64,000 bases of DNA from Liolophura sinensis (Eukaryota; Mollusca; Polyplacophora; Chitonida; Chitonidae), in NCBI RefSeq assembly GCF_032854445.1, contig NC_088295.1:40659385-40723384 (forward strand), read 5' to 3'. This document shows, one piece after another, positions 15,940 to 63,023 of this stretch; the stretch's first letter is position 1, and the number at the start of each line of letters is the position of its first letter. Made by a program: the position numbers and the translations under genes. The notes beneath the pieces are model-generated. The model saw only the letters and a list, made by a program, of their open reading frames with translations, ran no database searches and had not been told where the DNA came from.

Positions 15940-17937
15940 TCAGCATAGATGGGGATCTGGGATGTTGTCAATATCAAACAGATTGTCCACGTCAAATGCT
16001 GAGGGAAGATCATTAGGGTCCCATGATAATCCGTCGTCCTCATATGCCGGGGACTGAGCAACCGGTGTGTGAAGCCCGCTATTGTTCAACGGTCCGTCTG
16101 TCGTAGCCGACTCCGCCGCCTCGATCAACTCTTTTTGATCGGGGAATGTGAAATTTTCACTCCACCAGTCGGGTGCTCTCAAACTGGTGCCACTGACTGT
16201 CAAATCTAAAGGGTCGTTGGTAGTAAAATCTAGAGCTACGTCCTGGGTAAAATCTGTTTGAGAGAGAAGCTCTTCGAGTCCCAAATCGTCCGAGTTGGAT
16301 TCGGACGGCGGTGGGCTCAGTTCCATTAAAGGACTGGCTAATGTTTCGGTTTCGTTGAGCAGATCTTCCGTTTTAATAGTTTGTCCGTCGATTTGGATGT
16401 CTTGACTGAGTATTGAGGACCAGTTGAATTCCCCACTGAACGTATCACTGTCATCGTCGCTCTGAACCACATTGAAGTTCAAGAAAGGGTTTGAGGTGTT
16501 TTCTTTGGAACCACAACTACCCTGAGACAACATGTCGTCATCCTCCACCTCCCGTTTGATCTTCTTTAATGGTGGCGTCGTTAGAGGTGCATAACTATCC
16601 CTGCTGCACCGGCGTTTCTTAAATACACCGTTTTCAAAACTGTCCACGTATTCAGGGTTGATACGCCAGAAACCACCTTTGCCTGGCTCGTCTTTACGGC
16701 GAGGTACCTTCTGGAAGCATTTGTTCAGGGACAAATTGTGTCGAATGGAATTCTGCCATGAACAAAAATGAAAGTTTATGTTATAGAAAACAAATGTCGT
16801 TGTGTGTGGAACATTAAAGGTGATAAAATAAAGAAATCGATAAAGATATAAATTCTTTGTTGCATAATCTATTATCTGGCAGCAATAAATGTACCGATGA
16901 AGTGTCGGTTTCTTTGACACAAATCAATACACCGATTGATTCATTATAAATAAAAATTATAGTCAGCGATCCGAGCGAGAGCGTGCCATGTTCGCCGGTA
17001 TAGGTAAATAGTCACTGTTGACATCAGTCTTGAGATATTTTATGGCGCCATGCACTCGTGGTTTTGTTTGGCACCGTTTCGTCTACCTGCATGAAAGGGT
17101 TAATATTGACACTATCGTCGATGTGTCAAACTGTAATAGGCCGTGTCAGTAGTTTACCTGTATACCGTTGTAGATAACACCTTATCCACAGAGTTATCAG
17201 ATAAGGCTAGTAAATACGTGTGAATGACATACCTGCCAACTGGGTTCCGCCATTCGGTAATACATGAAGTTCTCCGTAATCCAATTGTAGATAGCGGATA
17301 ACGTGATTTTCTGTTTTTGCGTCTCTTGCATGGCCATGCAAATGAGGGTGGCGTAAGAATAGGGAGGTTTCACGGTGTGGTTGGTTTTGTAGTCTATCTT
17401 GTCGTATGTTGACACAGGTGGTGAAATAATGCGGTTATCGACAATACGCTGGTCAAATTTCCCGTTAGGCGTTGAGCTGGCCATGTTGAGAATGGCATTA
17501 GGGTTCACTTTGGAGTCTTTGGTGAGAGGTGTTGATACCTGCTGCTGTGGTTGTGAGGGCTGAGACGGGGAAGCCATTTTCATAATGTTCAAATTCTGCA
17601 GCCAATTTAAACTGGTTAAACTGTCGTCTAAATTCACTGAACCATTGCTGTACGTGTCCATGGGGAATTTGGCTAGCCAGTTCTGTCGAAATCTGTGCGC
17701 CAAGTGTTGGCTTGTGACCACTGGGACTGTATTCCTTCGGCTTACGATCGGTTTCGACGGTGTTGACGTGCAACGAATCTTCACTTTCCCCCCAGCATAA
17801 GGCATGCTCTCGCTGCGACTAATGACTCGGATATTCGCAGAAGAACTGGGCGTGTGTACCCTGTGCACTTGGAGCGGGGACCGCAAATCCGTGATCTCGT
17901 GCATTTCGCCGTTCTCGTCTGTAATATACATCAACAT
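15940..17937 (-). CDS. FOXJ1: FoxJ1 forkhead transcription factor, two coding exons
   Basis: Coding exons are 17937-17233 and 16752-15940 on the minus strand, joined by a GT-AG intron of 480 bp in phase 0, giving 505 residues. The forkhead domain spans about residues 189-285: [36 protein letters not shown] at the exon end, then [13 protein letters not shown] and [12 protein letters not shown]. The intron splits the recognition helix region between Q and N. N-terminal [11 protein letters not shown] and [19 protein letters not shown] are typical of invertebrate FoxJ1. The C-terminal half is acidic with short hydrophobic clusters, as in activation domains. Known role: nuclear activator of motile-cilia genes. 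The start is [12 protein letters not shown] at 17937; no ATG precedes it in the open frame. An AG after a pyrimidine tract at 17943-17944 could join an upstream 5' UTR exon. Confidence 0.95.
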
Positions 17938-18308
17938 ATTGGCTGTAAAATGAGGGGAACTAAAGGCACACACCGGACAGGTGTTCAGAGAGGAAATGGC
18001 CCGAGTCCCCCAAAATAAAACGCTCAGTCAATATTATATCATTAATTATTACTGGGGCTATAGTAGCAGGTTCTGATCACACAAGTTTACTGATCGATGC
18101 CCAAATCGAATCTGACATTTCTGCACAGCCGATGCTTATTTATGTGGGAAGCGGAATATTAAACAAGTCAATACATATTCTCACACCTCCCGGGCTTCTC
18201 CTCGAGAATAATAGAGTCTACCTTGAGCCGTTTGCGATAATCCGGTCTGTGCTGAGACATGTTGGGTCACTAACCCCTCCCTGACTGGCTAACATAGGGC
18301 AGCCACCC

Positions 18309-23082: not shown

Positions 23083-23614
23083 GCGTAAATCCAATCGAGA
23101 TTTTGCTATTATTTTAGAATAGCCCAAATAATTACCTTTCACAAAATATCAGCCTTGTCAGTGCACTTGGTACCGTTCAAAATTGGTAATTAGGTGTATA
23201 CATTTTACAATGCGGGTTGCATTGTGACAGTTTTCAAACTTTAGAATCATTTTAACGATTTAAGTATTTTATATTCTTTTTAAATATGATTAGATAGCAC
23301 AGGTAATCTGATATTTGCTGAAAAGTATTAATTTTGAGCTGTTCTTGGTAAATACAGAAAATATGATTTTATGAACGAATCTGGATTTTTTTTTGCCCAA
23401 AATCTCCGATATAGCCTATATGATAGGGTTTCTAATATAGAGAGATGTTGACTGTGCTGTCAGTTGTGAGTTATGGTAAACTTATAGAAATGGGATATAA
23501 GTGCTTAGTTCTGTATTCCATGAGTGGAAAATTTGAATACTGTATAGAAGCGATAAGTTTCAACACTGGGGTTGTTCCCTTCATAGTCAAGCCAATTATA
23601 CACGAAGAACTATA

Positions 23615-24345
23615 TGCGCTACATGGGCGTGACAGGCAACTCTGTCTGTCATGCACTACATGGGCGTGACAGTCAGCTCTGTCTGTCATGCACTGCATGG
23701 GTACAAAGCCATCTGTATCTAACATGCATTACATGGGCACAAAATATGGTTCGTCTGACATGCACTACATACGCACAGTCAGCTCTATCTAACATGCACT
23801 ATATTGGCACAGTCACTTATGTCCTACATGCACCACACTCACAAAGTCAGCTCTGTCTGACATGCACTACATGGGCGTGTCAGTCAGCTTGGCACAGTCA
23901 CTTATGTCCTACATGCACTACATGCTCATAAAGTTAGTTCTGTCTGACATGCACTACAAGGGCACGAAGTCAGTTCTGTCTGTCATGCACTACATGGGCG
24001 TGACAGTCAGTTTTGTCTGTCATGCACTACATTGGCACAGTCACTTACGTCCTACATGCACTACATGCTCACAAAGTTAGTTTTGTCTGACATGCACTAC
24101 ATGGGCACGAAGTCAGTTCTGTCTGACATGCACTACATGGGCTCAAATCATTTTTGACTGACAAAAGGTGGACACAAAATCTGTTCTGTTTTATAGAGCT
24201 GACTGTCACGCCCATATAGTGCATGACGGACAGAGCTGACTATCACGCCCATGTAGTGCATGTCAGACAAAGCTGACTGTCACGACAATGTAGTGCATGT
24301 CAGACAGAGCTGATTGTCACCCCCACGTAGTACATGTCAGACAGG
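23615..24345. repeat. Minisatellite with an inverted block
   Basis: About 15 units of 34-37 bp on the + strand (consensus pieces GCACTACATGGGCGTGACAG and TCAGCTCTGTCTGACAT) cover 23615-24165. After a gap of about 30 bp, four units of the same sequence run in reverse orientation (24196-24345). Units vary and show alternating subtypes, for example CACTTATGTCCTACATGCAC. Confidence 0.92.
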
Positions 24346-28881: not shown

Positions 28882-30789
28882 TCAGGGGAGCATATCCAAC
28901 CGTATGTCTGGGCTGAGGGTGTTATGGCGCGAAACACACTTCCGGTGAAACAAAACTGATGGCGAGAAGAAAGGCTTCCAGTTGCCCAAAATATGGCGCG
29001 TCACTGAGGCGCTTCCTGCTGAGCTAACTTTCTCCACATCGTTGTTGGTATCGTCAACCCACATGGACCGCAGCATCATGAACGGATATGCATTTGTGTC
29101 TCGAGCGTACGTAGCTTCTTCTATTTGCAAAATTGTTTTGGAAATCTTGTTAATTAATTTAAGCCTGACGTTGCCGCCATCCTTGTACGTCAACGTCATC
29201 TGTAATTTCTGTGGATTTAGATCAACGTGTTGAATAGCCGCGTATGGTCTAAAACTAGATGCATCCGTCTGACCAACAATTACGGAAGAACCGAAAGGAA
29301 TCCAGTCCAAGTGGTTCGGAGGTAACGGAAGTAGTCGCACATTTCCATCCTGATACATGACAAATATCTGTTCAAATGACGCAGAATACGGAATACGAAC
29401 GTATACACGAAAGAAGTCCACCCTGGACCACGTTTCTTCTGTGTCAGTCCGCCGGAGTTTCATCGTATTGGGAGACAGCCACCAAAAGTCTACCTCCAAA
29501 CCTTCAACGATCACATCCTTGCTGGAATATATTGTGAATACCTTCTCTCCACGTTCACGCCTCATGTTTAGTCGGATAAAGTCAAATTTAATCGCACCTT
29601 CTTTGCCATTTGGGAATTGTTTGTAATGTGGATTCTTCAAAACCAAGCGGATGGAGTTTTCGGACGACTCCAACCATGTAAAATCTGGAATATCCCAAGT
29701 GTGGAGAGTGTTTTCAGAGGAAAAACTCTTGTAATCAGTGGTAGAGTATTCAGCTGTTCTTCCTCGAAACCTAAGCCCTACCTGAAAATCCTCTCCTGGC
29801 AAAATGTCGGTAAGGTTTATCGTGAGAACAGAGCCGACTTCTGATCCCTGGGAGCCCCGGGAGGGGCCATCCACTCGAAAAGTTAAGTCCAGAGTGATTT
29901 TCTCAACTGAACCAAAGTTTATCACTCCCGGGAAATCTCCACTGGCGCCAGATACCTCGAAGGTACGACTCCCATCCGGGGAGCTGTAGTTTCGAAACTC
30001 ATCCGAGAGGCCGTCGTCATTTCCTATTTGCCAGAGTTCTGAAGAAAAAATGTCACAACTGCTAAAATCGGCTTCACGTTTGTTCAGATTGGTCAAGGGC
30101 TGGTATGTGGGCAGTGAAGCAGTCAGTCGGTATCGCCTGGCAGTGTCATGGTAAACTGGGATCTTAACATTGTCCTCTTCAGCGCACGACGTCGAACGAC
30201 TTCTCTGTTCAACCTTAGCAGGAAGAACGTCATCCCGTCCCGGAGAAAGGTTCGTCTGCGAGTCGTCGAGACAGGGAAGCAGGCATTTCACATCCCATTC
30301 TGTCAAACCCGAGTCCGACACGAATAGATCTACTTTGTCAATTTCTATTCCATACTCATCCGCGGATTCTACTTTCAGCACCAGAGAATGTTCCCCGCTT
30401 GGCACCGAAAAGGGCTTTCCAATGCTTCCGCTGGACACCATCACTCCCCAGTAGTCCCCAAAGTGCGAATGTTGTTTGCTGGAGAAACTTCCAACATCTG
30501 TATGGTCAAGCCGTATTACCACCTTGTCGGACCGTCCGTCGTTGGAATACACCCCATTTGAAATGGACACATAACTTGTACGACGTAAACAAAACGTCAG
30601 CGTGACTTCCTCCCCTGGGGTCAAGTGAACAGTTTGCCCTCCTGATGCATCAGCCCTGTTGCGTAAAAAGGTGGAGTTGGGCATGAACCTTTCAGCTTCT
30701 AGAGGAAAGACAACTGCCGAAGCGACATGTGGTCCAATGGCAAAGACAAGGAAAAACACTGAACTGAAGCTTTGTCTCAGAGTTGCCAT
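28882..30789 (-). CDS. Secreted 635-residue protein, paralogue 1 (function unknown)
   Basis: A single-exon frame from ATG at 30789 with an N-terminal signal peptide (MATLRQSFSSVFFLVFAIGP, cleavage likely after ASA near 25). Residues about 28-155 look like a galactose-binding-type beta-sandwich (LEAERF, YVSISNGVYSNDG, DEYGIEIDKVDLFV). A linker with Cys, Ser and Asp follows, then a second beta-rich region at about 250-410 (IFSSELWQIGNDDGLSDEF to GAIKFDFIRLNMRRE) and a further beta-rich C-terminal part. No transmembrane segment and no enzyme motif. Family not recognised; a carbohydrate- or matrix-binding role is only inference. It lies in direct tandem with the copy at 33059-34966 and has no introns, unlike DDX47 and FoxJ1. 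A TATA box lies about 200 bp upstream. Confidence 0.88.
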   Translation of the reverse strand: MATLRQSFSSVFFLVFAIGPHVASAVVFPLEAERFMPNSTFLRNRADASGGQTVHLTPGEEVTLTFCLRRTSYVSISNGVYSNDGRSDKVVIRLDHTDVGSFSSKQHSHFGDYWGVMVSSGSIGKPFSVPSGEHSLVLKVESADEYGIEIDKVDLFVSDSGLTEWDVKCLLPCLDDSQTNLSPGRDDVLPAKVEQRSRSTSCAEEDNVKIPVYHDTARRYRLTASLPTYQPLTNLNKREADFSSCDIFSSELWQIGNDDGLSDEFRNYSSPDGSRTFEVSGASGDFPGVINFGSVEKITLDLTFRVDGPSRGSQGSEVGSVLTINLTDILPGEDFQVGLRFRGRTAEYSTTDYKSFSSENTLHTWDIPDFTWLESSENSIRLVLKNPHYKQFPNGKEGAIKFDFIRLNMRRERGEKVFTIYSSKDVIVEGLEVDFWWLSPNTMKLRRTDTEETWSRVDFFRVYVRIPYSASFEQIFVMYQDGNVRLLPLPPNHLDWIPFGSSVIVGQTDASSFRPYAAIQHVDLNPQKLQMTLTYKDGGNVRLKLINKISKTILQIEEATYARDTNAYPFMMLRSMWVDDTNNDVEKVSSAGSASVTRHILGNWKPFFSPSVLFHRKCVSRHNTLSPDIRLDMLP

Positions 30790-30991
30790 GACAACTTATA
30801 TATATGGGCTATGTGTATAGTAAAACTGTAACTCAACTCAGATTTGAAAGGCCTTTTTTCTCCCTCTTCCTGTAAGTTTGTCAGAATCGTGGCAACACTT
30901 TTGTCATATGACAGTCCCGTGGAAGTAGTCTCAAGAGAGGACATGAGCGAGCGTTGTGAGCAGAGAGGAGCTTAACTCCAGCCGCGCGCTG

Positions 30992-33058: not shown

Positions 33059-34966
33059 TCAGGGCAGCATATCCAACCGTATGTCTGGGCTGAGGGTGTT
33101 ATGGCGCGAAACACACTTCCGGTGAAACAAAACTGATGGCGAGAAGAAAGGCTTCCAGTTGCCCAAAATATGGCGCGTCACTGAGGCGCTTCCTGCTGAG
33201 CTAACTTTCTCCACATCGTTGTTGGTATCGTCAACCCACATGGACCGCAGCATCATGAACGGATATGCATTTGTGTCTCGAGCGTACGTAGCTTCTTCTA
33301 TTTGCAAAATTGTTTTGGAAATCTTGTTAATTAATTTAAGCCTGACGTTGCCGCCATCCTTGTACGTCAACGTCATCTGTAATTTCTGTGGATTTAGATC
33401 AACGTGTTGAATAGCCGCGTATGGTCTAAAACTAGAGGCATCCGTCTGACCAACAATTACGGAAGAACCGAAAGGAATCCAGTCCAAGTGGTTCGGAGGT
33501 AACGGAAGTAGTCGCACATTTCCGTCCTGATACATGACAAATATCTGTGCCATTGACGCAGAATACGGAATACGAACATATACACGAAAGAAGTCCACCC
33601 TGGACCACGTTTCTCCTGTGTCAGTCCGCCGGAGTTTCATCGTATTGGGAGACAGCCACCAAAAGTCTACCTCCAAACCTTCAACGATCACATCCTTGCT
33701 GGAATATATCGTGAATACCTTCTCTCCACGTTCACGCCTCATGTTTAGTCGGATAAAGTCAAATTTAATCGCACCTTCTTTGCCATTTGGGAATTGTTTG
33801 TAATGTGGATTCTTCAAAACCAAGCGGATGGAGTTTTCGGACGACTCCAACCATGTAAAATCTGGAATATCCCAAGTGTGGAGAGTGTTTTCAGAGGAAA
33901 AACTCTTGTAATCAGTGGTAGAGTATTCAACTGTTCTTCCTCGAAACCTAAGCCCTACCTGAAAATCCTCTCCTGGCAAAATGTCGGTAAGGTTTATCGT
34001 GAGAACAGAGCCGACTTCTGATCCCTGGGAGCCCCGGGAGGGGCCATCCACCCGGAAAGTTAAGTCCAGAGTGATTTTCTCAACTGAACCAAAGTTTATC
34101 ACTCCCGGGAAATCTCCACTGGCGCCAGATACTTCGAATGTACGGCGCCCATCCGGGGAGCTGTAGTTTCGAAACTCATCCGATAGACCGTCGTCATTTC
34201 CTATTTGCCAGAGTTCTGAAGAAAAAATGTCGCAGCCGCTAAAATCGGCTTGACGTCTGTTCAGATTGGTCAAGGGCTGGTATGTGGGCAGTGAAGCAGT
34301 CAGTCGGTATCGCCTGGCAGTGTCATGGTAAACTGGGATCTTAACATTGTCCTCTTCAGCGCACGACGTCGAACGACTTCTCTGTTCAACCTTAGCAGGA
34401 AGAACGTCGTCCCGTCCCGGAGAAAGGCTCGTCAGTGAGTCGTCGAGACAGGGAAGCAGGCATTTCACATCCCATTCTGTCAAATCCGAGTCCGACACGA
34501 ATAGATCTACTTTGTCAATTTCTATTCCATACTCATCCGCGGATTCTACTTTCAGCACCAGAGAATGTTCCCCGCTTGGCACCGAAAAGGGCTTTCCAAT
34601 GCTTCCGCTGGACACCATCAATTCCCAGTAGTCCCCAAAGTGCGAATGTTGTTTGCTGGAGAAACTTCCAACATCTGTATGGTCAAGCCGTATTACCACC
34701 TTGTCGGACCGTCCGTCGTTGGAATACACCCCATTTGAAATGGACACATAACTTGTACGACGTAAACAAAACGTCAGCGTGACTTCCTCCCCTGAGGTCA
34801 AGTGAACAGTTTGCCCTCCTGATGCATCAGCCCTGTTGCGTAAAAAGGTGGAGTTGGACATGAACCTTTCAGCTTCTAGAGGAAAGACAACTGCCGAAGC
34901 GACATGTGGTCCAATGGCAAAGACAAGGAAAAACACTGAACTGAAGCTTTGTCTCAGAGTTGCCAT
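33059..34966 (-). CDS. Secreted 635-residue protein, paralogue 2 (function unknown)
   Basis: Same length and layout as the gene at 28882-30789, with roughly 14-16 amino-acid differences over 635 residues and no indels (about 97-98% identical by eye). Differences include MSNST for MPNST, YWELM for YWGVM, NRRQADFSG for NKREADFSS, and SMAQIF for SFEQIF. Signal peptide, beta-sandwich region, GNDDGLSDEF segment and C-terminus are all kept, so both copies appear functional. The duplicated block extends past the coding region on both sides. It is not a retrocopy insertion, because the flanks and the TATA region are duplicated too. Confidence 0.88.
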   Translation of the reverse strand: MATLRQSFSSVFFLVFAIGPHVASAVVFPLEAERFMSNSTFLRNRADASGGQTVHLTSGEEVTLTFCLRRTSYVSISNGVYSNDGRSDKVVIRLDHTDVGSFSSKQHSHFGDYWELMVSSGSIGKPFSVPSGEHSLVLKVESADEYGIEIDKVDLFVSDSDLTEWDVKCLLPCLDDSLTSLSPGRDDVLPAKVEQRSRSTSCAEEDNVKIPVYHDTARRYRLTASLPTYQPLTNLNRRQADFSGCDIFSSELWQIGNDDGLSDEFRNYSSPDGRRTFEVSGASGDFPGVINFGSVEKITLDLTFRVDGPSRGSQGSEVGSVLTINLTDILPGEDFQVGLRFRGRTVEYSTTDYKSFSSENTLHTWDIPDFTWLESSENSIRLVLKNPHYKQFPNGKEGAIKFDFIRLNMRRERGEKVFTIYSSKDVIVEGLEVDFWWLSPNTMKLRRTDTGETWSRVDFFRVYVRIPYSASMAQIFVMYQDGNVRLLPLPPNHLDWIPFGSSVIVGQTDASSFRPYAAIQHVDLNPQKLQMTLTYKDGGNVRLKLINKISKTILQIEEATYARDTNAYPFMMLRSMWVDDTNNDVEKVSSAGSASVTRHILGNWKPFFSPSVLFHRKCVSRHNTLSPDIRLDMLP

Positions 34967-35180
34967 GACAACTTATATATATGGGCTATATGTATGGTAA
35001 AACTGTAACTCCACTCAGATGAGAAAGGCCTTTTTTTTCTCCCTCTTCCTGTAAGCTTGTCAAAAACGTTGATGCTGTGGTTTGTACACTTTTGTCATAC
35101 GACAGTCCCGTGGATGTAGTCTCAGGCAAGGACATGAGCGAGCGTTGTGAGCAGAGAGGAGCTTAACTCCAGCCGCGTGC

Positions 35181-46056: not shown

Positions 46057-48153
46057 CTACAAAGTAAGAAAAGTAATAAGACTGCCGGCTGAGGACAGTA
46101 GGACGGTGAGTAGGGAGGTTAGGTACAGCAGTACCATGGATGGAACACCAATGGAGCTGGCTTTTCCCAAAGAACTCCCGACTATTGCACTTATAGCCAT
46201 ATCCCGACTTAATTCATTCTCTACACTTCTAGATGATTGAGTGATCACCATACTGGTCACCGGAGTGACAAAATTATAACGCAGCGATAAGGCAATAGCT
46301 TCCTGTTCCAAAGCAGCTTCAACGGTTTTGTTGGGTGCAATGGACATTTCGCGAATCAGGTCTTTAATTTTCAGGTAAGCCCGAAGCTTTTCAGCAAAAC
46401 CAGCACTCCAAGGTGCGACATTGGTGTCGTATGTATTTTGGCCAGTTACAGGAATGTTATAATTTACAACATCAGTCTTTCCACTGGCGCTCACTTGGGC
46501 TGACCAGGACTGTGGTGCAGATGGAGTTATCTCTCCAGCCACAATAATTTCTGAACCCTTAAAATACTGAGGGAAAGTGGTGCTGGTCAGTGTGGCAACT
46601 TCCACTGCATCTGTGTCATAAGTCACATGAATGTCCAACAAAATTACAGATTCAATTTCAGTGAAGAAGTTTGACAGTTGGCTGACACCATCAGTGTCCT
46701 CATAGATCTGTCGAGCAAATCCCAAATTCTCCCAGGATAACTGCTGTAGGAAGTCAATGGAGACACCCATTCCAAAACCAAGTGAGAAAATGGGAAGTTT
46801 GCTTTCTATATTCCAAGTCCGCACATTTTTACGAATCTTTACTGTGTTAGTTTCCCCTACAGATGGCATCCCATCTGTCAAAAATACAATCATCCTGCCT
46901 CTACGCTCACTTAAACCGGTCATCAACTGAGACAAAGAGTTACCCGCCTCTCTTAAGGCAGCATCAATGTTTGTACCACCGTCGGCTTTGACATGGTCAT
47001 CCACGAACCTCTTAGCTCGAGCGATGTTTTCAGCAGATCCTCGTATCGGGCGGGGCTCCCATGATCTCACGTTGCTTGAAAATAAAAGAATATTGAAGTA
47101 ATCATCAGGTCTCAGTTGAGACAGAATTGTCTTCATGGCCTGACGAGTTTGGATGATCTTTTCCCCTGACATTGACCCACTGACATCAATAACAAATGCC
47201 ACATTTTTATTCAGGGTGACCAGGTTTGGGTCAGATGGGGCGATGTAGTGAACAAAGTAACCACTGTCAACCAGCAACACTCCTCCCCTTGACTCTTCAT
47301 TTTCTCGCCTCACGTCATACTCAATTATGAATTCACCATCCGATCCCTTCTCTGCATCTAATTTTCTCTGTGCAGCGATAGACATGGTGTAGGCTACAGA
47401 CTTGAATGTATCAGAGGCTGTCAGTTGAACATCAGGAGTGCGTGAGCTTTCTAACAGTGTGCTTTCCCCTGGGGGTGAAAACTTGAATGAAGCGAATCCC
47501 TGGGGCTCATACAGCTGAGCACTTAAAGTGAGGTTCTCCACCGTTTGTCCAGGCCTTATGCTTATCCTTTGCCTGTACACCCCAAGCCTTCTTTCCAACA
47601 GCTCAGAATACAGCAGTTTGAATTCCACTTCACTCTCGGCAGCTACGTTGATCGAGATTTTGAAATTTTCCATCCCTCTTGGGCTCGGCGTGTAAGTGTC
47701 AGTGCCGACGTGGCCTGCAGATTCCCCCTTGGACTGAGCATCCTTGTACACCTGTTCGGCCGCACTTTTATTCATCACGTCCGCAATAAACCAGGTGTCA
47801 TTTATCAACATGGAGAAGTTGGAAATGAAGGCCGTCTCTGGGATCTGCACAATGAATTTTGCTTCTCTAGACTCCATTTGATCATTCATCACCACACTTT
47901 CCACCAAAACTTGCGTGTACCTTGAGCTGGTTCTAGAGTCGATGTTCATTTTCACGATATTCGCGGGTGGAGCGATAACGTCGTTGTTGACAAATCTGCG
48001 ATGTCGCATAGGCACAACAACAACATCATTCTTGAACGTGAACTCGGACTCGCGCCTTGCTACCAAATTGTAACCGCGGACTTTCATCGTTGTGAACAAA
48101 ATCAGTACGACGGCAAGGTTTGTTAACCCGCACCTTAGTGCCTGACCCGCCAT
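46057..48153 (-). CDS. Inter-alpha-trypsin inhibitor heavy-chain-like protein (VIT + VWA), possibly GPI-anchored
   Basis: A single-exon frame of 698 residues from ATG at 48153. Signal peptide MAGQALRCGLTNLAVVLILF. A VIT domain covers about residues 60-180 (VVMNDQMESREAKFIVQIPETAFISNF, with AEQVYKDAQSKGESAGHV). A VWA domain starts near residue 315 with NVAFVIDVSGSMSGEK; the metal site is complete (DxSxS, Thr in GGTNIDAAL, Asp in LTDGMPS). Then comes the LSLRYNFVTPVTSMVI block seen at the end of the conserved ITIH region. The tail (VPSMVLLYLTSLLTVLLSSAG...) is hydrophobic and ends the protein, which suggests a GPI signal or membrane anchor. The ITIH C-terminal domain of the longer vertebrate proteins is missing. 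Known family role: hyaluronan and matrix binding. Confidence 0.9.
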   Translation of the reverse strand: MAGQALRCGLTNLAVVLILFTTMKVRGYNLVARRESEFTFKNDVVVVPMRHRRFVNNDVIAPPANIVKMNIDSRTSSRYTQVLVESVVMNDQMESREAKFIVQIPETAFISNFSMLINDTWFIADVMNKSAAEQVYKDAQSKGESAGHVGTDTYTPSPRGMENFKISINVAAESEVEFKLLYSELLERRLGVYRQRISIRPGQTVENLTLSAQLYEPQGFASFKFSPPGESTLLESSRTPDVQLTASDTFKSVAYTMSIAAQRKLDAEKGSDGEFIIEYDVRRENEESRGGVLLVDSGYFVHYIAPSDPNLVTLNKNVAFVIDVSGSMSGEKIIQTRQAMKTILSQLRPDDYFNILLFSSNVRSWEPRPIRGSAENIARAKRFVDDHVKADGGTNIDAALREAGNSLSQLMTGLSERRGRMIVFLTDGMPSVGETNTVKIRKNVRTWNIESKLPIFSLGFGMGVSIDFLQQLSWENLGFARQIYEDTDGVSQLSNFFTEIESVILLDIHVTYDTDAVEVATLTSTTFPQYFKGSEIIVAGEITPSAPQSWSAQVSASGKTDVVNYNIPVTGQNTYDTNVAPWSAGFAEKLRAYLKIKDLIREMSIAPNKTVEAALEQEAIALSLRYNFVTPVTSMVITQSSRSVENELSRDMAISAIVGSSLGKASSIGVPSMVLLYLTSLLTVLLSSAGSLITFLTL

Positions 48154-48265
48154 GTTTCCGATTTTAAAAATGGCCGCTTCTCACTTGAAATGCTCCTGGA
48201 TCAGGGACTGGAAGAATATTTACGTACAAACAGGGCAGGATGTAACGGGTAAAGGGGCGTGGCGG

Positions 48266-51445: not shown

Positions 51446-54400
51446 ATGGCGGCCACGGGCGACAGCATGGCGAGTACATCAACAAATGTCGATGGTACAG
51501 ACAACAAAATAGAAAAGATTACATTTAGCCAATTGGTATGATGCTTATCTTAACTTGAACTACCTTTCCCTGTGTTGAAATGTTTGGGTCTCTGTCCAGA
51601 ATTTGAATGAACTAGCCTCATGCACCTTTTGATGCGAAACCACGACAACTGCACCTCGTTCAATCCCATTGTAATCATGAATAAGACTGCGAATCCTTCA
51701 TTGGGCTAGTTGAATCCGAGCAAGGTTGACTGGTCAGACCTGAATAAATCATTATTTTGTGAAGATGTTTGTCAGGTACTTCACAAATGTCGGTGGTAAA
51801 CTCGTGTTTCCTCTGCTCTTAAACCTGACCTTAAATCTTGAGCACGGCGGGCATTAAACACCATGAATCAATCAATCAATCATTTTGTTGGGGTAACAAG
51901 AGTAAGTTGCTCTCATGTTCCCCACACAGTTGACTGGCCACTTACGATGTCACTGCGTGGAGATTTCGCGTGAAAAAGCATTATTCGACCTGAATAAATC
52001 ATTATTTTGTTCTTTACTTATTTAATTAGAATTCAATTAATTAACAAAATGAACGCCAAAACTTGTCCATGGACATCCATACTCTTGAGTCTTTACGTTT
52101 TTTTCAGAATCTGAGGTGCAGAATCGAAAAATAAGTGAAGACATATAACTTCCAGCTAGCTCTAAATGATAGACTCGGTGATAATTACATAGGCCTACAG
52201 TGAGCTAATGTTTATTTGCTTTGAAAATTTGCTACAAATAGAGTTCTTATTTAAATGAAAGTAAATATTTTTTTGATTGATGTTATGAAGTAGACCTATT
52301 CAAGAATTACATTTTATAACTCAGGATGACTATGCTACTCTCTTTCATATTTGTACTGACACTTGCCTACTCATGGATCAGTCCCCTTCAGCCTGGTAGG
52401 ATGAATTGTAAAATTTGGCAAAACAGTAGATTACTAACCTTCCTCACACATCCAGCCACTCATTTACAATGCACAGGGTCCTTGGGAGTCTGATTGTTAA
52501 AGTCCCAAGATGTCAATCATCTCAAAGGTAAATGCCCATTCTTGTTTATTAAAGTTCCCATCTCTGTTGACTTCTCATTTAGGAAATGGCCGTCATCTAC
52601 ATGGTGCGCATGCACGGCTGGATACAAAACTATCGTATTATGTCCTTTTATTTTTATACAACCACATGCTGGCTAGTTTTAGTCCCGTTGACTTTAGATG
52701 ATACAAATAGTGCGTCAGAGAACCAGACTAGAGCATGTGCCGTGGTTTTGACATGTGACCTCCACAAATGAGTCGGCCATTTTGTATCCAGCTGCCTGGC
52801 CGTGCAGATGGCAGCCATTTCATAAATGAGAATTCAGTGGAGAGGGTGACTTTAATAAATATGGATGGATATTTACCTCTGGGATGATCAGCGTCTTGGG
52901 ACTTTAACAGTCAGGTGCCCTAGGACCCTAAGCATTGCAAAGGGGTAGCTAGATGGGCATTGTAGCTTAGTAATCGTCTGTTTTCCGAAATTATACAATT
53001 CATCCTACTAGGCTGAAGGGCAGCAATCCATGACTATGCTAGTCCCTGCAAGTGTAGTCATCCAGGGCTAACATTTCACAACAGCCAGGTTAAAGAGTTG
53101 AGGATTGCAAGAAGAACCTTGGGGGGAAACCTGTGCACCTCATTATATATGTATATATACATAGTTTTAAAATCATGTCACAGCTGCTCTGATCCAATCA
53201 TCAGCACACTCTTTAGTCACATATCTAAGAGTACTGGGGTGAAAACAAACCAAATTTAACCCGGGTGAGATAGGTCTTGAATAAGATTTTAGCATGACTA
53301 ATGAAAAATATAGTTTTAGGTAAGAATTTTTTCTGGAAAATTAATCAGAATGTGCCTAACCTTCAAATGTAAAGCTGAGATTCCATATACGCGGTATGCG
53401 GTTTGCGGTATACGGCACGCGGTACGCGGATACGGCATGCGGTATGCGCTTTCTCTGATTCCATTTATGTGGTAACCTATGCGTTTTCTTTCATTCATGG
53501 TGCATTTTTATCAGAGCAAACATGTCGCATTCCTCCATTTCACGACGTGTGGCTTTAGAGCAAGATTCAGACCTTGCCATAATAGCAATGTCATATAAGT
53601 TGTTGCAACTAAAGAAGCGTAAAAAGAGAAAACACCGATGGTGGGTCCACAGTATTTTGCGGCAAAGAGCTCAGCAGGGAGCTTTACATAACTTGGTCTC
53701 GGAATTGCAGCTGGATGGAGAAAAATTCCAACAGTACTTTCGTCTAACCAGAGAACAATTTAAACAAGTTCCGACCACGTGTCGGGGAAACACCCCACCA
53801 GTGACGTCATTTCTTGGGATACCCTGTCCGGTTTTGAAAACGCATACCGCACCGATCGCTACATGGTGCGATTGATTTTGTCGTATACGTTTCCGCATGA
53901 AAAAACGGATCTGCGACCGTACCTATGGAATCATTGCAACTTATTATCCGCATACCGCGTACTGTATACCGCTACCTCATGTAAGGAATCTCAGCTTAAT
54001 AGTTTCATTGTTGTGTAGTACTTTAAACTTCAGAAATCTGCAGAAATCAGCATTTCACCCCTTTATCTCAAGGTTCTCCAGCTTCCATTGCTGTGGGGCC
54101 TTGGTTGCACTGAGTTGTTCTTCAGCAATATGATTGATTCATGTCACGTGGCAATGTTTGTCGGTTTCTCGCTGATGGTTACTCTTGGCAGTCCGGTCTG
54201 CGTATGCCAATGGTGTTCAACAGCAGTGAACCATCACTGCATTTAAACAGGTATGTTTGAGATTGCATGTACTAGTACACTGACTTAGTGATGTTTTCAA
54301 GCTTAGTGATGTCTTCATGTGTTATTTTTATCTTCAGGGTGTCATAGATGTTTTGTGTGAGGCATGTCAGCAGCTGAAATGGAAGACACCATCAAAGATA

Positions 54401-57400
54401 CAACAGGAAGCTATTCCAGTGGCTTTGGCAGGTACATAATGGGTTTGTGGTACATGTAGCTACAGTACCCTATTTCGTCTAATTTTTGGAACATCTGGCC
54501 GGCTCATTTTTGTAATTGTAAGAGGAATATTGAGTTTTTTTTCTCACGTGGTTAGACCATCAAATGATGAGCATCCTCATATCTTTAGTTTTTCTATGCT
54601 TTTCCAGTGTTATATTCTTTCTACTTTCAACACTGTTGTCTATCACAAAAATAAGCAGAAGTAGGGCATATGCATGTTACCCAAACTACATGTAAACAGC
54701 ATATATATACATGTTACAAAACCAAAGAAATAAAGAAGGGTGACCATTATTATGTTTTTCACATTTGGTTTTGCTGCTAGTATATCGTGTATATACTTTG
54801 CATATAATACACAACATTTTAAAATAAAATACAAGTATCCTGCATGGCATAATTTCTGTGAGTGGTGAAAGATTTAATAGTTCATGTAACAAATGGCAGG
54901 TTATTTATCAAAGAACTGTTTGACATAAAATTTTGTTCATGCTTAAGTTACTCATTTTGCCTGATTCTGAAAGTTCTGTTTATCATAGGAATGTGTTTTT
55001 TTTTTAAGGTAAGGTGATCTACAAAAACTGATATTTCATTTTGCTTATCTTTATTTGCCAGTAAAAAGCACTTTTGGGGGCTAAATTTTAGGTCATTTAA
55101 ATTACTGTATTTGCAAGGTAATTTCTTAAAGCTTCAAAACTTCATTTATATAGGGAATGATGTGATAGGTCTTGCCGAGACGGGCTCTGGGAAGACGGGA
55201 GCGTTTGCCCTGCCCATTCTGCAAGCTCTGTTAGCCAGCCCTCAGCGACTATTTGCCCTAATACTCACACCCACAAGGGAGCTGGCCTTCCAGATATCAG
55301 AACAGTTTGAGGCCTTGGGCACAACGATTGGTGTAAAATGTGGTAAGGAAGCTACATTAGGGTGTAACTCATTATAGTGTAATGAATGAAGCATTAGTCA
55401 AGACTAAATACAAAGCTCTAACAAAACCCTTGTCAGCTATATTCCAAGTTTAAAATTATCCTTTATATGTTGCAGACTTTTGACTCATAATTCAGTGAGT
55501 CACACGCCATCAAAGCATAAGTGAGCTAGACTAACTTTGGGTACAGCTATATGTTGCTTCTGGTCAATAGGATTGAATACTATAATTAGAGCATACTGGC
55601 TAACAATATTTACAAGGCCGCACAGTCTCGTTGTTTGAAATGTTCATAACCTCTGAACTTGTTTTTCAAACAGCATAAAGTTTCGAAACTAATGCTTTTG
55701 AAATGAGCATACTGTGGCCTTCTTTGGGGTTTATTATTGGCTCTTTATATTTTTTCATTTAAAAAAATTGTCATCAAATATTTCAACTGGCAACATGATT
55801 TATGCTGTTTCAACAGCTTAAAGTGCAGAGATAGTTATTAGATAAGGCTTGCAATATGAAATATGACTAAATTGTGCACCAGTTAGCATACCTAATTTGT
55901 TAGCGGTAATCCAGTGGAAATTTGGACATTCAATTATGAAGAGCCTTGGGCTCTGCCTGGTTTCCTACCATCTCATAATGCCGGCCCCCATTGTATAAGT
56001 GAAATATTCTTGAGTATGTCATAAACCACCAAGTAAATAAATAAATTGTGAAGCAACATTCCATGTTTAATTACAGATAAATGGTAATATCTAAATTATA
56101 GATAAAAGGTAAATAAATACTGTTAACTGAACTGCCATATGGTGTTATCTGCAGGCTTTCAGTATTTTCATGTTTTTCAGCTGTAGTTGTGGGTGGAATA
56201 GACATGATGACACAGTCATTGATGCTGGCAAAGAAACCTCATGTTATAATTGGTAAGATGGATATTTGTCAACTTTCCCCATTTGGGGAAAAGATTCTGT
56301 CTCTTGCTTCTCAGCTTGTTTCTCGCCATCTTCATCATTCACATGGTACATTGCTTGTCTCCCTTGATTACTGAAATGTTATGTAATTTTCTGACAAAAG
56401 CCTGTGTCAGTGTAAGTGCAGTTTCAGAATTTTGCCATAAGCTCTAGAAAATGTTAACTTACGGGAGGTTTTACAATGTCTTTGATGTAGCCAGTTCATT
56501 TTATAGCAGATTTACTTGTCTCCTTTCACTAGCCACACCAGGAAGACTAGTCGACCATTTGGAGAACACAAAAGGTTTTAGTCTGAGATCTCTGAAATAC
56601 TTGGTAAGTGGACAAGCTATGACATTTGAGGGAATTCAGGTTATTTATTTGATTTTTTCAGTTAGATTGTGTTGAATGTTATGCATATTGTGGAGATATT
56701 TACATCTATTTATGAAAAGTTAAATTTAGCCTTTTCACATCAGTTAACTTTCATGTGCAGTTTTTTCAGTTTTAAACAGAAGGTAATTATCAGTTACCCC
56801 ATCACATTTTTGGTACTTGTTTTCAGTATCTTTTGATACTTTGGGCTTATGATGCAGTAAGCCTTTACTGATAATGATATAGTCAAAAGAATGGTGGAGA
56901 GTCAGAGTTGTTCTGGTTGCTGTGGTGATGTTTTACTTCATCTTACATTTTAATGATTAAAAGAGGCCTCTGACCTGCAGCCTGTGGATGGTTGTAGGTT
57001 GAAAAAGTAAAAATTCAGGCCATTGGGGAAGAAAATTATTCCAAGTGTCTTTCTAGATCAGCTCCAACATGGAATTTTTCGTTACCATCTATGACGTATA
57101 ACTGTTCAGCATGGTTTTTTTTTTTCAGGTTATGGATGAGGCAGACAGAATATTGAACATGGACTTTGAACAAGAGGTATGGATAGCCATTAATAGTACA
57201 CAGATTTTGTATGAAGACTTATCGACAACAGTGAGCAGACAATATTTCTGATATAAACAACGCTGATGTTTATGGCAGATTATGGAAGCGCTTCTGTTAT
57301 TAAATAATACAAAATGTGTGATCGGGATAAGTTGACAGGAATCCATGTTATTGGAAAGTTCACAGGAAGTTTCTATTTTTGAGACAGTTCAATATCCAGC

Positions 57401-60400
57401 CCAGGATTCTAACCATTATATTTTATCATTTATAAATGTATATATTTCTTTGTTTCTTGAGTCTATGATTGTATATTATGATGATGTGTTGTACCATGTG
57501 TTTACACTTTCAGGTGGATAAAATTTTAAAAGTTATACCAAGGGAGAGGAAGACTTATCTGTATTCTGCAACAATGACCAAAAAAGTAAGATCTTTGGTT
57601 CAGTCCAAGGATATATTCATGACTGATTTTGGCATTCACAGTATGTTAGTGAAATAATTTTTATATGGAAAGAATAGTTTATTTTTCAAGTGTTCAACTT
57701 TTGTAAATTACAGAAAAGATAACAAATACTGAATATTATACACCGTTAGTATGCCATAAAGGATACCATGACAAGATTTGTTTTTATTATAGGGAAAATG
57801 TACAAGCTGAGGTTATCGCTGAAATTGGACATGATACTTTAACAAACCCAGTTTAGATTTTATGTCTCACAATATCTGATACACATAGTTTATGTATCGC
57901 ATAGGTTATAATCTGATTTACTATATTTCACCTAACATTTCATTAATGAATCTTTTAATTGTAAGTTGAGCACCAAGTAGTGTTTTATGATGTTTAAGTA
58001 AGTCTAAAAATTGTTAGGCGAAATTGCCGTATCTATATGTATCATCTTATGTTATTTACTGCTTTATCTTTATATCTGTCATCTTCTCTTATTTATTGCT
58101 TTGTCTTTATATGTGTCGGGGGAGTGGGGGGGGGGGCTCCGTGGCTCTGTTGGTTAGAGCGCTAGCGCAGTATAATGACCCAAAGGCCTGTCACCAATGT
58201 GGTCTCTGTGAGTTCAAGTCCAGTTCATGCTGACTTCCTCTGCGGTCATAAGTGGGCAGGTCGGCCAGCAACCTGTGGAAAGCCATGGGTTTCCCCTGGG
58301 ATCTGCCTGGTTTCCTTCCACCATAATGCTGGCCGCCGTTGTATAAGTGAAATATTCTTGAGTACGGCGTAAAACACAAATAAAATAAATAAATAAATTA
58401 TATGTGTCATCTTCTGTTATTTACTACCTAAATTTTATATGTGTCATCTTCTGTTATTTACTGCCTTATCTTTGTATGTGTCATCTTTTGTTATTTACTG
58501 CCTTATATTTCTATGTGTCGTCTTTCAGTTATTTACTACCTTTTCTTTTATGTGACATCTTGTTATTTACTACCTTATCTTGTGACATCTTCTGTTATTT
58601 GCTACCTTATCTTTATAAGTGTCATCTGTCGTTATTTCATGCCTTATCTGTATATGTGTCATCCTCTGTTGTTTGATGCTTAATTTTAATATATGTCATC
58701 TTCTGTTACCTACTGTCTTTATTAACATGATTCACGGAAATTGTTTTGTGATTTTATAGGTTGCAAAATTACAAAGGGCCTCTTTGCAAAATCCTGTCAA
58801 AGTTGAAGTTTCAACAAAATACCAAACGGTAGAAAAACTCCAGCAGCATTATATCTTTATCCCCGTTAAATTTAAGGTAAGAATGATTGTGTGATTGTGT
58901 GGAGAAGTAACTGTTGCACAGTGTAAGTAAGAAATCAGTGATTAAGTAGATAAATGTTGCCAGTATGAAGAGAAAATGAGTTCAGCATTTTGATAATTCA
59001 TCTGTTCGTCCTTTTGAAGAGATCTGCTACTGGTTGGTTTGAGAATTCACATTCTAATACATTTTGCTAAGAGATAAGTCTTTTTGCAAGTCTTTTAACT
59101 TTGTAATTTCATACCACTGTCAAATTAAAGTAGACAGGAAGGCATAGCAAACATCCACAGAATAAAGCTGTAATTCATTAAGTTCATTCTAGGCTGTGAA
59201 TTTAGAGTTTAAATTCTTTTTTGATTCTGAAAGACTTTTTTTTTTGTTGCTCTATTTATGTAGCAGTGTCATAGTTTTTCAAAATTCTGTAGTGTAGGGT
59301 TATTTATGGGGTTTTTTTTTATTGTTTTTCAAGATATATACCTGATGTATATGTTGAATTGTTTGGCTGCCGTAGTTTGGGATTATTTATTTTCTCATTT
59401 TATTTTTTTTACCCCTCAGCCAATTTTGGTCATGGGGTATTGTCGTAGTGGACGGTGTGTGTGTCTGTCCATTTGTCAGTATCTTTCTAAATGCTCTTAA
59501 ACGGTTTAGCCCAAATTTGCCAAAATTACACCACAATTACACCTTGGTACAAGGTAGAACCCTATTGATTTTCACTGACCTTGACCTTTGTCTTCAAGGT
59601 CATTGGGGTCATTTAAGTGAAAGTTTACAAAAGGCTTGTAAACATGATACCTCTAGAACGGTTTAGCCCAAGTTCACCAAACTTACACCACGGCAGTCTG
59701 AAATAAACCAAAAAGTTGTTATCCTAAAAAGGTATTCTCCTTCTTCATGTTTCACGACTTCCTAAATGCCACTCCAAGAAAATCTACACATTATGACATA
59801 CCACCGTTAAGTTGGATCTATTCATCACATTGTACATGTGCTCAAGGCTGAGGTGTTATAAGTGCATTGCATGGCATATTGCACGGTCAGGATATGTAGG
59901 CCTACCTGGCATATATATTGAATGGTTTGGTTCATGTAGTTTTGGGTTATTTATTTGCGTGTTTCATTGTTCTGCAGGATGTGTACCTGGTGTACATATT
60001 GAATGGTTTGGTTCATGTGGTTTGGGGTTATTTATTGGCGTGTTTTATTGCTCTGCAGGATGTGTACCTGGTGTACATATTGAATGGTTTGGTTCATGTG
60101 GTTTGGGGTTATTTATTTGCGTGTTTTATTGCTCTGCAGGATGTGTACCTGGTGTACATATTGAATGGTTTGGTTCATGTAGTTTTGGGTTATTTATTTG
60201 CATGTTTTATTGTTCTGCAGGATGTGTACCTGGTGTACATATTGAATGGTTTGGTTCATGTGGTTTGGGGATTATTTATTTGGGTGTTTCGTTGCTCTGC
60301 AGGATGTGTACCTGGTTTACATATTGAATGAACTGGCTGGAAACTCATTCATGATCTTCTGTAGCACATGTGTGAACACCATGAGGGTAGCACTTATGCT

Positions 60401-63023
60401 TCGTAACCTTGGCCTGACTGCAGTTCCCCTCCATGGCCAAATGAGTCAGGTAATGTGGGTTTGAATATAGCTGAAGACAAAACCTAATCGAATTACTTCA
60501 ACATGACTTTCTCGCTATTGTATGTGTGAAATATTGCCGTTAAGTCGTAATCATTCATTCATTCATTCATTCAGCATGACTTCATGATAAAATTTACCGG
60601 CTTGTTTGAGTATACATAATGGTTTGCACACGTAAAGTCTATTTTATTTTTTTCAGCTGTTGAATTTAGATCCTTGGACTGAAAATGGTAGTCAGATTTT
60701 TAGTATGTGTTTTTCCATTTCCAGGCCAAAAGACTGGGTGCCTTGAACAAGTTTAAGAGTAAGAATCGTTCTATCCTTATCGCAACAGATGTTGCCAGCA
60801 GGTTAGTTCATTCTGCATATTAATTTTAATCGTTTAAAATTACTGAATTTGTAAGTGGTTTATGCGTAATTTGCATACATTGGTTTTGATTATGTGGAAT
60901 GTGGTGTACCTTATCCCACACAGAACGATCTTCATAGTTAATATAGAGAGAATGAAGACAGACAAACATGTTCCCCTATAAGTGACAGTGTTTAGAAGTC
61001 CCAAAATGTTAACAAATTGAAACTGTGTGAAGATAATAAATTTACAGTAATAATATGTATGTGCTGATACCTCTGATTATAACCAGAAAAAATTGCGTAT
61101 GGTTCTTTAAAGAGTGGCTGTGGTTTTCTTTTATATCTAAACAAATTGTTCCTTGAATATTTTATTCCATCACTTTCAGAGGCCTTGATATTCCTCATGT
61201 TGATGTGGTTATAAATTTTGACATCCCAAGCCACTCCAAAGACTACATTCATCGTGTGGGGAGAACTGCCAGAGCAGGCCGAGCAGGGAAAGCCATAACT
61301 TTTGTTACACAGTTAGTACAATCTGTTTTTTTAGTAACACAATTGTGACAGTTCAGAAGTTCAGTTATTTAAATTGTGGGTACGTGTTACTTTCTTAAGA
61401 TCTATGCTAGGTGCTGATCTTTGTAGTCCTGCTCCAGATGCATGTATGTGCCTTGTGTAATGGTGAAAAACCTTACCAAACTGCAAGTCACATGAGCATT
61501 ACCATGTTAATGCTATACAGCTTTTTGGGCATCGTGTCTTGTGCATGGCTTTTTAGTGAAGCATCACTGTACATGTAAATGTGCAGGAATTAAAACTGTC
61601 CCACTACAAGGAGACTACTAGAGTTTTCATGAAATGATCTGTAGAATGAAGAAAGCAGTTATAAAACCAAATGCACGTGAAGTACCAAGAACCACCTTCA
61701 AAAAACAGCAGTATTTTTTAGAGTGCACCTAACCATTAAGTGGCACAGTAATCTTATTCTCACTATCTCTAATCTGTGGAGATCACTCTGGTGATTATAC
61801 ACTGTCCGCTTTGCACTGTCATGGCTTCCCTTTATGATTGACACATATCCCAGGTCTCAAACTATCTCACTGTTCATAGGGCCCTTGGTGACAGTAAGCA
61901 ATTGACGACATTTGTGGATCGGTTTACAGTGTCTTATTTTCTTTGGAGACCAATTGTCTTGCAACAGTATGGCATTCAAGTCTGTTCATCAGTTGTGGGG
62001 AAGTTTGCAAGTTACTTGCCAAAGATTACGCTCACTGAGTGCCAAATTGGGTTGCTAACAGCAGTGATGATTCTGAACATTTCACAGCTCACTGATTCTC
62101 TTGAGGAAATTTGACAAAGGTGGACAGTTCTGTGTGGCAACTATTTAGTGACAGGCAGTGCCTGCGAATGGTTGTGGGTTTCCCTGGTGCTCTGCCTGGT
62201 TTCCTCCTCCCGTACTGCTGGCGGTTGTCATATATGTGAAATATTCTTGAGTACAGAGTAAAACACCAATCCTGTAAATGTTTCTTTGGTGTAACAACTG
62301 AGGTGAGTGTACCACTGTTTCTAGGTATGATGTGGAACTTTACCAGAGGATAGAGCACCTAATAGGTAAGCAGTTGCCCCTGTACAACACTGAGGAACAG
62401 GAGGTTATGCTGCTCATGGAAAGGGTGACGGAGGCTCAGAGATACGCTAAAATGGTGAGTTAATAACAAGGAGGTTTCCTTAAGTGAGGAGACCAAAGAT
62501 AGAGTGTAAAACCAAGAGGCCAGTTTGGTATTTGGTATTTTGTTTCAGATGATATGAGCTATTAAATCATAGGCTAGGGATATGCATGGGCAATGTCTTG
62601 ATGATCAGTAGCTCAGAATATTCTTTTTTGTAGTCAGCTTTTTTAGATGATACAGAGGCATCAGAAAGTAGAATATTACATTTATTTAACAACCTTTTGG
62701 AAAAGTAAAGATATGAGTATGTTCTTCTTTAGATGGTCTAACGATGTTAGAGAAAAAAAAAGCTCAGTATTCCTGCTACAATTATATATATATTGGCTAA
62801 AATGAGCAGCCCAGTGTCCCAGGAAGATATAGGGTACATATAATTAAGAAAACAGTTTAAATGTAAATGACATCTGGTGACATTTTCTTGATGAGACTGG
62901 TATACTTTATTTCAGGAAATGTCAGAACTGAGCAACAGGAAAAAGAGACAAAAAGATGAAGATGAAGACACGGAAGAATCATCAGGTGTGCGGAAAAAAT
63001 TTAAGAAGAAAAGAAAATATTGA
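51446..63023 (+). CDS. DDX47: DDX47 (Rrp3-type) DEAD-box RNA helicase, 13 exons
   Basis: Exons read by eye: 51446-51535, 54338-54431, 55154-55342, 56181-56252, 56533-56603, 57129-57176, 57514-57585, 58760-58876, 60303-60449, 60725-60801, 61180-61311, 62325-62454, 62916-63023. All junctions are GT-AG and phases agree; the product is 448 residues, close to vertebrate DDX47. Motifs: Q-motif region with F27, Walker A AETGSGKT (69-76), PTRELA (101-106), ATPGR (from 149), DEAD (175-178), SAT (206-208), HGQMSQ at the end of exon 9, ATDVASRGLD across exons 10-11, HRVGR (350-354), and a Lys/Arg-rich tail. Family knowledge: nucleolar ATP-dependent RNA helicase in pre-18S rRNA processing. The start ATG opens [10 protein letters not shown] and is the only sensible one upstream of the Q motif. 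Exon 1 is about 2.8 kb from exon 2, across an intron rich in mobile DNA. Very sure of identity; exon borders not tested with RNA. Confidence 0.96.
51737..52010 (+). repeat. Duplicate of the DDX47 upstream region inserted in intron 1, with 24-bp flanking direct repeats
   Basis: 51761-51980 is a near-identical copy of 51217-51442: the 3' part of the SINE-like repeat plus the DDX47 upstream sequence, ending 3 bp before the start codon. It is flanked by an identical 24-bp direct repeat at 51737-51760 and 51987-52010, which looks like a target duplication. No poly(A) tail is seen. It could be a retroposed (3' transduced) copy or a template-switch insertion. Confidence 0.82.
52354..53060. mobile_element. 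Foldback element with long inverted arms in DDX47 intron 1
   Basis: The left arm (about 52354-52629) and right arm (about 52780-53060) are imperfect reverse complements over nearly their whole length, with a central loop of about 150 bp. Matching blocks include TTCAGCCTGGTAGGATGAAT on the left against its complement near 53005-53025, and GTTAAAGTCCCAAGA near 52496 against TCTTGGGACTTTAAC near 52895. No transposase is present. I could not define exact ends or target duplications, because the outer 30-40 bp are diverged. Confidence 0.8.
53373..53996 (+). mobile_element. Deleted PIF/Harbinger element with TAA target duplications
   Basis: A 624-bp element bounded by AGCTGAGATTCC and its exact complement GGAATCTCAGCT, flanked by TAA (53370-53372 and 53997-53999), the TWA-type target site of PIF/Harbinger. 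Next to the left end are repeated GCGGTATGCGG/GCGGTATACGG words, and related words occur inside the right end; they look like sub-terminal transposase-binding repeats. It encodes the start of a transposase (separate entry) but lacks the DDE nuclease, so it is non-autonomous. It lies in DDX47 intron 1. Confidence 0.88.
53522..53875 (+). pseudogene. Truncated Harbinger-type transposase N-terminus
   Basis: An open frame of 117 codons from ATG. Residues about 30-85 contain a basic stretch ([11 protein letters not shown]), then [19 protein letters not shown] and a [16 protein letters not shown] helix, the pattern seen just upstream of the nuclease domain in Harbinger/ALP1-like transposases. After about residue 88 the reading becomes unrelated and stops, as expected if the catalytic part was removed by an internal deletion. 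Residual internal coding part of the element bounded at 53373 and 53996. The family call rests on the WVH...FRLTREQF pattern plus the TAA target sites. Confidence 0.7.
54000..54337. other. End of DDX47 intron 1, no gene seen
   Basis: Unique-looking sequence between the Harbinger element and exon 2; no coding signal or repeat recognised. Confidence 0.5.
55935..56047 (+). mobile_element. Family A SINE, 3' fragment, DDX47 intron 3
   Basis: Only the body from GGGCTCTGCCTGGTTTCC onward and the tail (GTGAAATATTCTTGAGTATG, then AAATAAATAAA) are present. Confidence 0.8.
58020..58720 (+). repeat. T-rich minisatellite, unit about 37 bp, interrupted by a SINE
   Basis: Degenerate units of the type TATGTGTCATCTTCTGTTAT plus TTACTGCCTTATCTT lie on both sides of the SINE at 58118-58397 (two or three units before, about eight after). 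The SINE target duplication is part of a unit, so the array predates the insertion. Confidence 0.8.
58118..58397 (+). mobile_element. Full-length family A SINE in DDX47 intron 7, 11-bp target duplication
   Basis: tRNA-like head with CTCCGTGGCTCTGTTGGTTA (A box) and GAGTTCAAGTCC (B box), then the family body and the AAATATTCTTGAGTACGGCG tail ending in AAATAAATAAA. The direct repeat TTATATGTGTC flanks it at 58107-58117 and 58398-58408. A run of G directly precedes the head. Confidence 0.9.
59918..60302 (+). repeat. 81-bp tandem array duplicating the exon 9 splice acceptor of DDX47
   Basis: Units of 81, 81, 81 and 82 bp each contain TCTGCAG followed by GATGTGTACCTGGTGTACAT, that is, the polypyrimidine/AG acceptor plus the first codons (DVYLVYILN) of exon 9. 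Exon-like starts fall at 59978, 60059, 60140 and 60221; the true exon 9 starts at 60303. The array is open for 137 codons because 81 is divisible by 3, but the last unit has one extra base, so splicing to any upstream copy would enter the real exon out of frame and meet a stop at about 60331. An older, diverged copy is at about 59325-59400. Confidence 0.93.
60525..60575 (+). repeat. Repeat tail with (ATTC)n in DDX47 intron 9
   Basis: AAATATTGCCGTTAAGTCGT followed by five ATTC units. It resembles the 3' tail of the family B repeat at 1693-2068. Confidence 0.5.
62160..62275 (+). mobile_element. Family A SINE, 3' fragment, DDX47 intron 11
   Basis: Body GGTTGTGGGTTTCCCTGGTG and tail GTGAAATATTCTTGAGTACA, ending about 50 bp before the exon 12 acceptor. 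Confidence 0.8.

Follow-up and report, generated by a model that had tools for sequence, protein, structure and literature searches.

The DDX47 gene lies on the + strand of the analysed window, a stretch of 64,000 nucleotides of a chiton genome (C1:40659385-40723384). The gene was located with tblastn, for which the human DDX47 protein served as the probe. Eleven collinear exon matches were found at 54338-62454, with an identity of 66-85%. The peptide translated from exons 8-12 contains the Pfam domain Helicase_C at residues 42-147, and the boundary between exons 8 and 9 is in phase 0 according to the translation. No second DDX47 was found genome-wide; the other matches were more distant DEAD-box helicases of lower identity. 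As DDX47 matches well at one locus only, a productive acceptor giving a working message must exist there. DDX47 and its yeast orthologue Rrp3 have a role in ribosome biogenesis. The features of the region from exon 8 to exon 9 are listed in Table 1.

The assembly searched comprised 609,464,459 bases in 632 contigs. The chiton assembly GCA_032854445.1 is described with 609.5 Mb and 632 scaffolds (PMC11068029), and its species label was emended from Liolophura japonica to L. sinensis (PMC12441733). One contig (C99) contained seven COX1 copies at a spacing of ~15.5 kb, i.e. a concatemer of the mitochondrial genome, which is also present as a contig of its own (C632). The concatemer is probably an assembly artefact of the circle. 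The mitochondrial genes ND3-ND2-COX1-COX2-ATP6 follow each other on one strand, which is a molluscan order.

Several other features were observed in the window. A forkhead-domain gene was found on the - strand at 15943-18027, with the domain split across two exons. Repeats of 34-37 bp (ACATGCACTACATGGGC...) occupied 23614-24344, first as direct arrays and then as an array of reverse orientation. Two near-identical uninterrupted ORFs of 637 codons each lay about 4 kb apart on the - strand (28885-30795 and 33062-34972). Their weak similarity to a CBM domain of polysaccharide lyases does not reach the Pfam cut-off, and the pair is a recent tandem gene duplication. Another uninterrupted ORF on the - strand (46060-48180, 707 codons) encodes VIT and VWA domains, resembles the inter-alpha-trypsin inhibitor heavy chain and is possibly a retrocopy. 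Intron 7 of DDX47 contained 37-bp minisatellite arrays at 58034-58114 and 58398-58708, which stop ~50 bp 5' of exon 8 and carry no exon sequence.

Table 1. Features of DDX47 from exon 8 to exon 9, in positions of the window
Feature	Position	Strand	Description
DDX47 exon 8	58760-58878	+	tblastn, translation; ends ...PVKFK, then gtaaga
Intron 8 with productive acceptor	58879-60302	+	contains the whole array
Oldest decayed units	59288-59397	+	partial unit at 59288-59360, then the left part of a second unit from 59361 to about 59397
Dispersed repeat inside one ancestral unit	about 59398-59880	+	at least 127 matches to 59410-59900 in the assembly
Right part of the repeat-split unit	59881-59924	+	GGTCAG/GATATGTAGGCCTACCTGGCATATATATTGAATG; nhmmer
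Unit A0	59925-60005	+	53 nt from the intron end, 28 nt from the start of exon 9; decoy acceptor 1 with 59978 as first exonic base
Unit A1	60006-60086	+	decoy acceptor 2 at 60059
Unit A2	60087-60167	+	decoy acceptor 3 at 60140
Unit A3	60168-60248	+	decoy acceptor 4 at 60221
Unit A4	60249-60330	+	82 bp, extra A after GGGG; authentic intron 8 end and exon 9 start, acceptor at 60303
True DDX47 exon 9	60303-60449	+	147 nt, 49 codons; ends ...GQMSQ, then gtaatg; tblastn, translation
TGA common to all four decoy isoforms	60329-60331	+	translation; 118 nt 5' of the exon 9 donor

TRF reported a single array at 59903-60330, with a period of 81 bp, 5.3 copies and 93% matches. With several copies of a unit well above ~10 bp, the array is a minisatellite. 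In each unit, 53 nt from the end of intron 8 (GTTTGG...CTGCAG) are joined to 28 nt from the start of exon 9 (GATGTG...GAATG). The array is a direct repeat across the 3' splice site containing both the intron end and the exon start, i.e. a boundary duplication of the CBS 844ins68 type. The TCTGCAG acceptors of the five units are spaced by 81, 81, 81 and 82 bp. Every unit represents a complete 3' splice module: the branch-point-like words TTCAT and TTTAT (YTNAY, at about -44 and -25), a polypyrimidine stretch and TCTGCAG/GAT, with the slash marking the junction.

The 28 nt of exon 9 recurred with one mismatch in each decoy, and a DNA search of the whole 609-Mb assembly found the array unit at the DDX47 locus only. 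Taken together, these two results exclude chance. A unit belonging to a dispersed family was considered as well and was rejected, as the genome-wide search matched no other locus. The first-pass annotation had described a tandem array of decoy 3' splice sites built from the start of exon 9, with four full decoys 5' of the true site at 60303. TRF, the acceptor positions and the exon-9 recurrence all confirm this description. Of its unit content, the TCTGCAG acceptor held, while the exon piece was not limited to the first nine codons: the 28 nt correspond to nine codons and one base. The core of the 81-bp array was also correctly placed, and only its limits have to be extended, since decayed units occur from about 59288 onwards.

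These older units document a longer history of the array. The acceptor of the oldest unit now reads TTTTTCAAG/ATATATACCTG, the former CAG having become CAA. With a profile of the unit, nhmmer matched 59288-59397 (E 6.5e-5) and 59881-59924 (E 1.2e-3), both over the window. The second decayed piece, matched at 59361-59392, reached E 0.28 over the whole window and 0.0032 over the intron. Independently, the genome-wide DNA search matched 59288-59404 with 75% identity (E 6e-13). The left part of the split unit stops where the dispersed repeat starts, and the right part resumes where the repeat ends. Hence, the repeat entered a pre-existing array.

Among units A0-A4, the pairwise differences were lowest between A1 and A2 (1 of 81) and between A0 and A3 (2 of 81), and 4-8 of 81 for all other pairs. 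According to these unit identities, the array grew stepwise, over several rounds of amplification. The units follow the pattern A-B-B-A-B, which requires at least one block duplication and one single-unit duplication. Read from the unit sequences, this mosaic implies that the copy number has changed in the past. As the closest units differ no more than alleles do (the heterozygosity of the source animal is 1.24%; PMC11068029), the copy number is probably still changing and variable. The assembly contains a single haplotype and no second allele for comparison.

The reading frame leaves 60303 as the sole acceptor allowed for a productive DDX47 message. Translation from any of the decoys passes through the 81-bp units in frame without a stop, at 27 residues apiece. 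The extra A gives the last unit 82 bp, and exon 9 is therefore out of frame from any decoy. The frame arithmetic of the first-pass annotation, including a stop near 60331, agrees with the translation (Table 1). The predicted decoy isoforms thus carry a premature stop before a junction, as is characteristic of poison exons and AS-NMD. A stop more than 50-55 nt 5' of a junction marks an mRNA as a target of NMD, and by this general rule the decoy mRNAs would be NMD targets. An allele without the extra A would lead to an in-frame product. This product would probably not work because at least 27 mostly hydrophobic residues would be placed just before the Helicase_C core.

The acceptors were scored with a matrix made from 45 acceptors of the same genome, which is somewhat noisy: 10 were taken from DDX47 and the rest were placed automatically beside DEAD-box or myosin exon matches. 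The true site scored 8.3 and the decoys, from left to right, 7.6, 6.8, 6.8 and 8.5, with a training median of 10.1. About 2% of the + strand AGs in the window score ≥7.6. All five acceptors are of similar, middling strength. A stronger true acceptor was therefore rejected as an explanation; strength cannot account for the choice of the last site. Likewise, the strong selection that a first look at the sequence had suggested for the most downstream acceptor is not visible in these scores. An upstream acceptor is transcribed earlier and can win. The likeness of the decoys to the true acceptor makes a substantial use of decoys possible.

Exon 9 resembles coding sequence in its composition (24% A, 23% C and 29% T). 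Behind a decoy acceptor, 28 nt of exon are followed by T/G-rich sequence, and the whole extension consists of 44% T and 10% C. A G-run (GGG or GGGG) is located ~46-49 nt 3' of each decoy acceptor, and exon 9 contains none in its first 80 nt.

We checked the distribution of variable sites between the intron and exon pieces of the units. In the four 81-bp units, none of the six variable sites was located in the exon pieces (binomial P about 0.08). After adding the last unit, it was one of nine (P about 0.13). Conservation of the decoy exon pieces was thus not significantly above that of the intron pieces across the five units (binomial test). Exon 9 starts with a quasi-palindrome of 23 nt that forms a hairpin (e.g. 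60221-60244), with a stem of 9 bp in the decoys and 8 bp in the true exon. The stem of the true exon is shorter because of a synonymous change from GTG to GTT. The fold of the exon start was -7.9 kcal/mol in the decoys and -4.8 kcal/mol in the true exon. An RNA hairpin masking the decoys was rejected: its retention in the old copies was at chance level (256 of 500 shuffles in one test, P 0.22 in a second). The fold of the whole array was not unusual (z -0.79). The exon-start hairpin might favour duplication at its site.

The array is a locus-private boundary minisatellite, which arose by repeated tandem duplication of the end of DDX47 intron 8 (53 nt) together with the exon 9 start (28 nt). 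We consider it likely that its copies are mostly read as intron and that it is a tolerated burden and not an evolved switch. The most downstream acceptor (60303) would make the working mRNA, and it would win because it alone opens into a full coding-like exon that ends after 147 nt in a good donor. The decoys would be disfavoured, as they run after 28 nt into T/G-rich, intron-like sequence with a G-run. Upstream copies would mostly be treated as intron. The occasional use of a decoy would lead to a frameshifted mRNA, which NMD would be expected to remove. A part of the G-runs in acceptor choice at DDX47 can be proposed by analogy, carried over from human CBS.

If sizeable decoy use occurred without regulation, DDX47 output would drop with the copy number, and the array would act as a mild hypomorphic VNTR. 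The near-identity of decoy and true acceptors in sequence and score argues for such leakage, as does the stop that every predicted decoy isoform meets 118 nt before the next junction. In addition, human ABCA7, a donor-side analogue, makes an out-of-frame isoform that keeps one repeat unit (PMC5954066). However, the decoy extensions are intron-like in composition (44% T, 10% C). Moreover, strong leakage should be costly because DDX47 and Rrp3 act in ribosome biogenesis. Overall, we regard a leaky array as unlikely. That a variable-copy array of equally strong acceptors sets DDX47 output, with each unit adding frameshifted mRNA destroyed by NMD, seems quite doubtful. A regulated poison switch, in which a controlled choice of decoys tunes DDX47 via NMD, had been proposed in the first-pass annotation. 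One stop is common to all predicted decoy isoforms, and passages in PMC11357089 and PMC6547761 present poison exons as an established control in RNA-binding protein genes. Known poison exons, however, are typically deeply conserved, whereas the array units, with 1-8 differences, look recent. The frame outcome also depends on a single base in the last unit, constraint on the decoy exon pieces is not significant and the hairpin at the exon start was kept no more than by chance. With neither a regulatory element nor constraint found in the array, the switch gained no support, and we judge it very improbable.

An incipient gain of an intron or micro-exon would likewise involve a duplication crossing an intron-exon boundary, as in potato RdRp (PMC4974935). 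Yet the duplicated exon piece contains no usable donor. Among the donor-like sites of the unit, the best (CAT/GTGGTT) agrees with the consensus at 6 of 9 positions, has no G at -1 and +5 and would leave introns of ~42 nt to the next acceptor. Recursive splicing (ratchet) does not help either: all array acceptors read CAG/GATGTG, and as the AG is followed by GATGTG, the AG/GT site is not formed. Such a gain is therefore extremely improbable here. The last alternative is an assembly artefact, either a false tandem expansion or a base error behind the 82-bp unit. One haplotype was assembled and the G-run adjoins the extra A, which would be compatible with an error. However, PacBio HiFi reads with a mean length of 8.3 kb at 14x (PMC11068029) can span the array of 430 bp. 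The units carry distinct substitutions, and the old decayed units speak for a long local history. The array is almost certainly no artefact.

The DDX47 array is a natural competition assay, with five near-identical 3' splice sites placed serially before one exon. As these sites lie in a conserved single-copy gene, junction counts would show the weight of position, exon context and G-runs versus acceptor strength. The locus also indicates that boundary duplications can expand to arrays and last until they are invaded by a dispersed repeat. If copy number did set DDX47 output, the array would be a heritable throttle on ribosome biogenesis in the chiton.

Duplicated acceptors (CBS), donor-side splice-site minisatellites (ABCA7) and boundary-crossing duplications (potato) are already known. 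For an expanded acceptor-side array, no report was found in open-access text with a few phrase variants; phrases for duplicated acceptors gave nothing direct or the potato case only. There, as in DDX47, a duplication crossing the boundary copied the branch site, polypyrimidine tract and 3' splice site (PMC4974935). In potato RdRp, the copied exon piece provided a donor and a new intron arose, whereas the DDX47 unit has no good donor. The predicted decoy isoforms resemble poison exons and AS-NMD in that a junction follows their premature stop at a distance of more than 55 nt. Poison exons are conserved elements under regulation, and the DDX47 decoys are at most putative ones.

In CBS 844ins68, the duplication takes in the last 52 nt of intron 7 together with 16 nt from the start of exon 8, and splicing removes the upstream copy (PMC7490669). 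CBS c.844ins68 and DDX47 thus share a tandem copy of intron end and exon start (52+16 nt and 53+28 nt, respectively) and more than one acceptor. A title cited in PMC7490669 assigns the silencing of pathogenic CBS 3' splice sites to G-runs, and G-runs, implicated in CBS by that title, occur in each DDX47 unit. CBS has one extra copy, which is polymorphic and was studied experimentally. DDX47, in contrast, has at least six extra units (four intact and two decayed) from several rounds, known from the genome sequence alone.

The ABCA7 intron 18 VNTR is similar in that the minisatellite units bear the splice site of the adjoining exon (PMC5954066). When the site of the next unit is used in ABCA7, one unit is kept, which leads to a frameshift and a premature stop (PMC5954066). 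The ABCA7 repeat is located on the donor side, has 25-bp units in 12 to about 427 copies and has demonstrated length effects, whereas the DDX47 array is located on the acceptor side, with units of 81 bp and a copy number taken from one assembly. If decoy use were substantial, the DDX47 array would be the acceptor-side counterpart of the ABCA7 VNTR.
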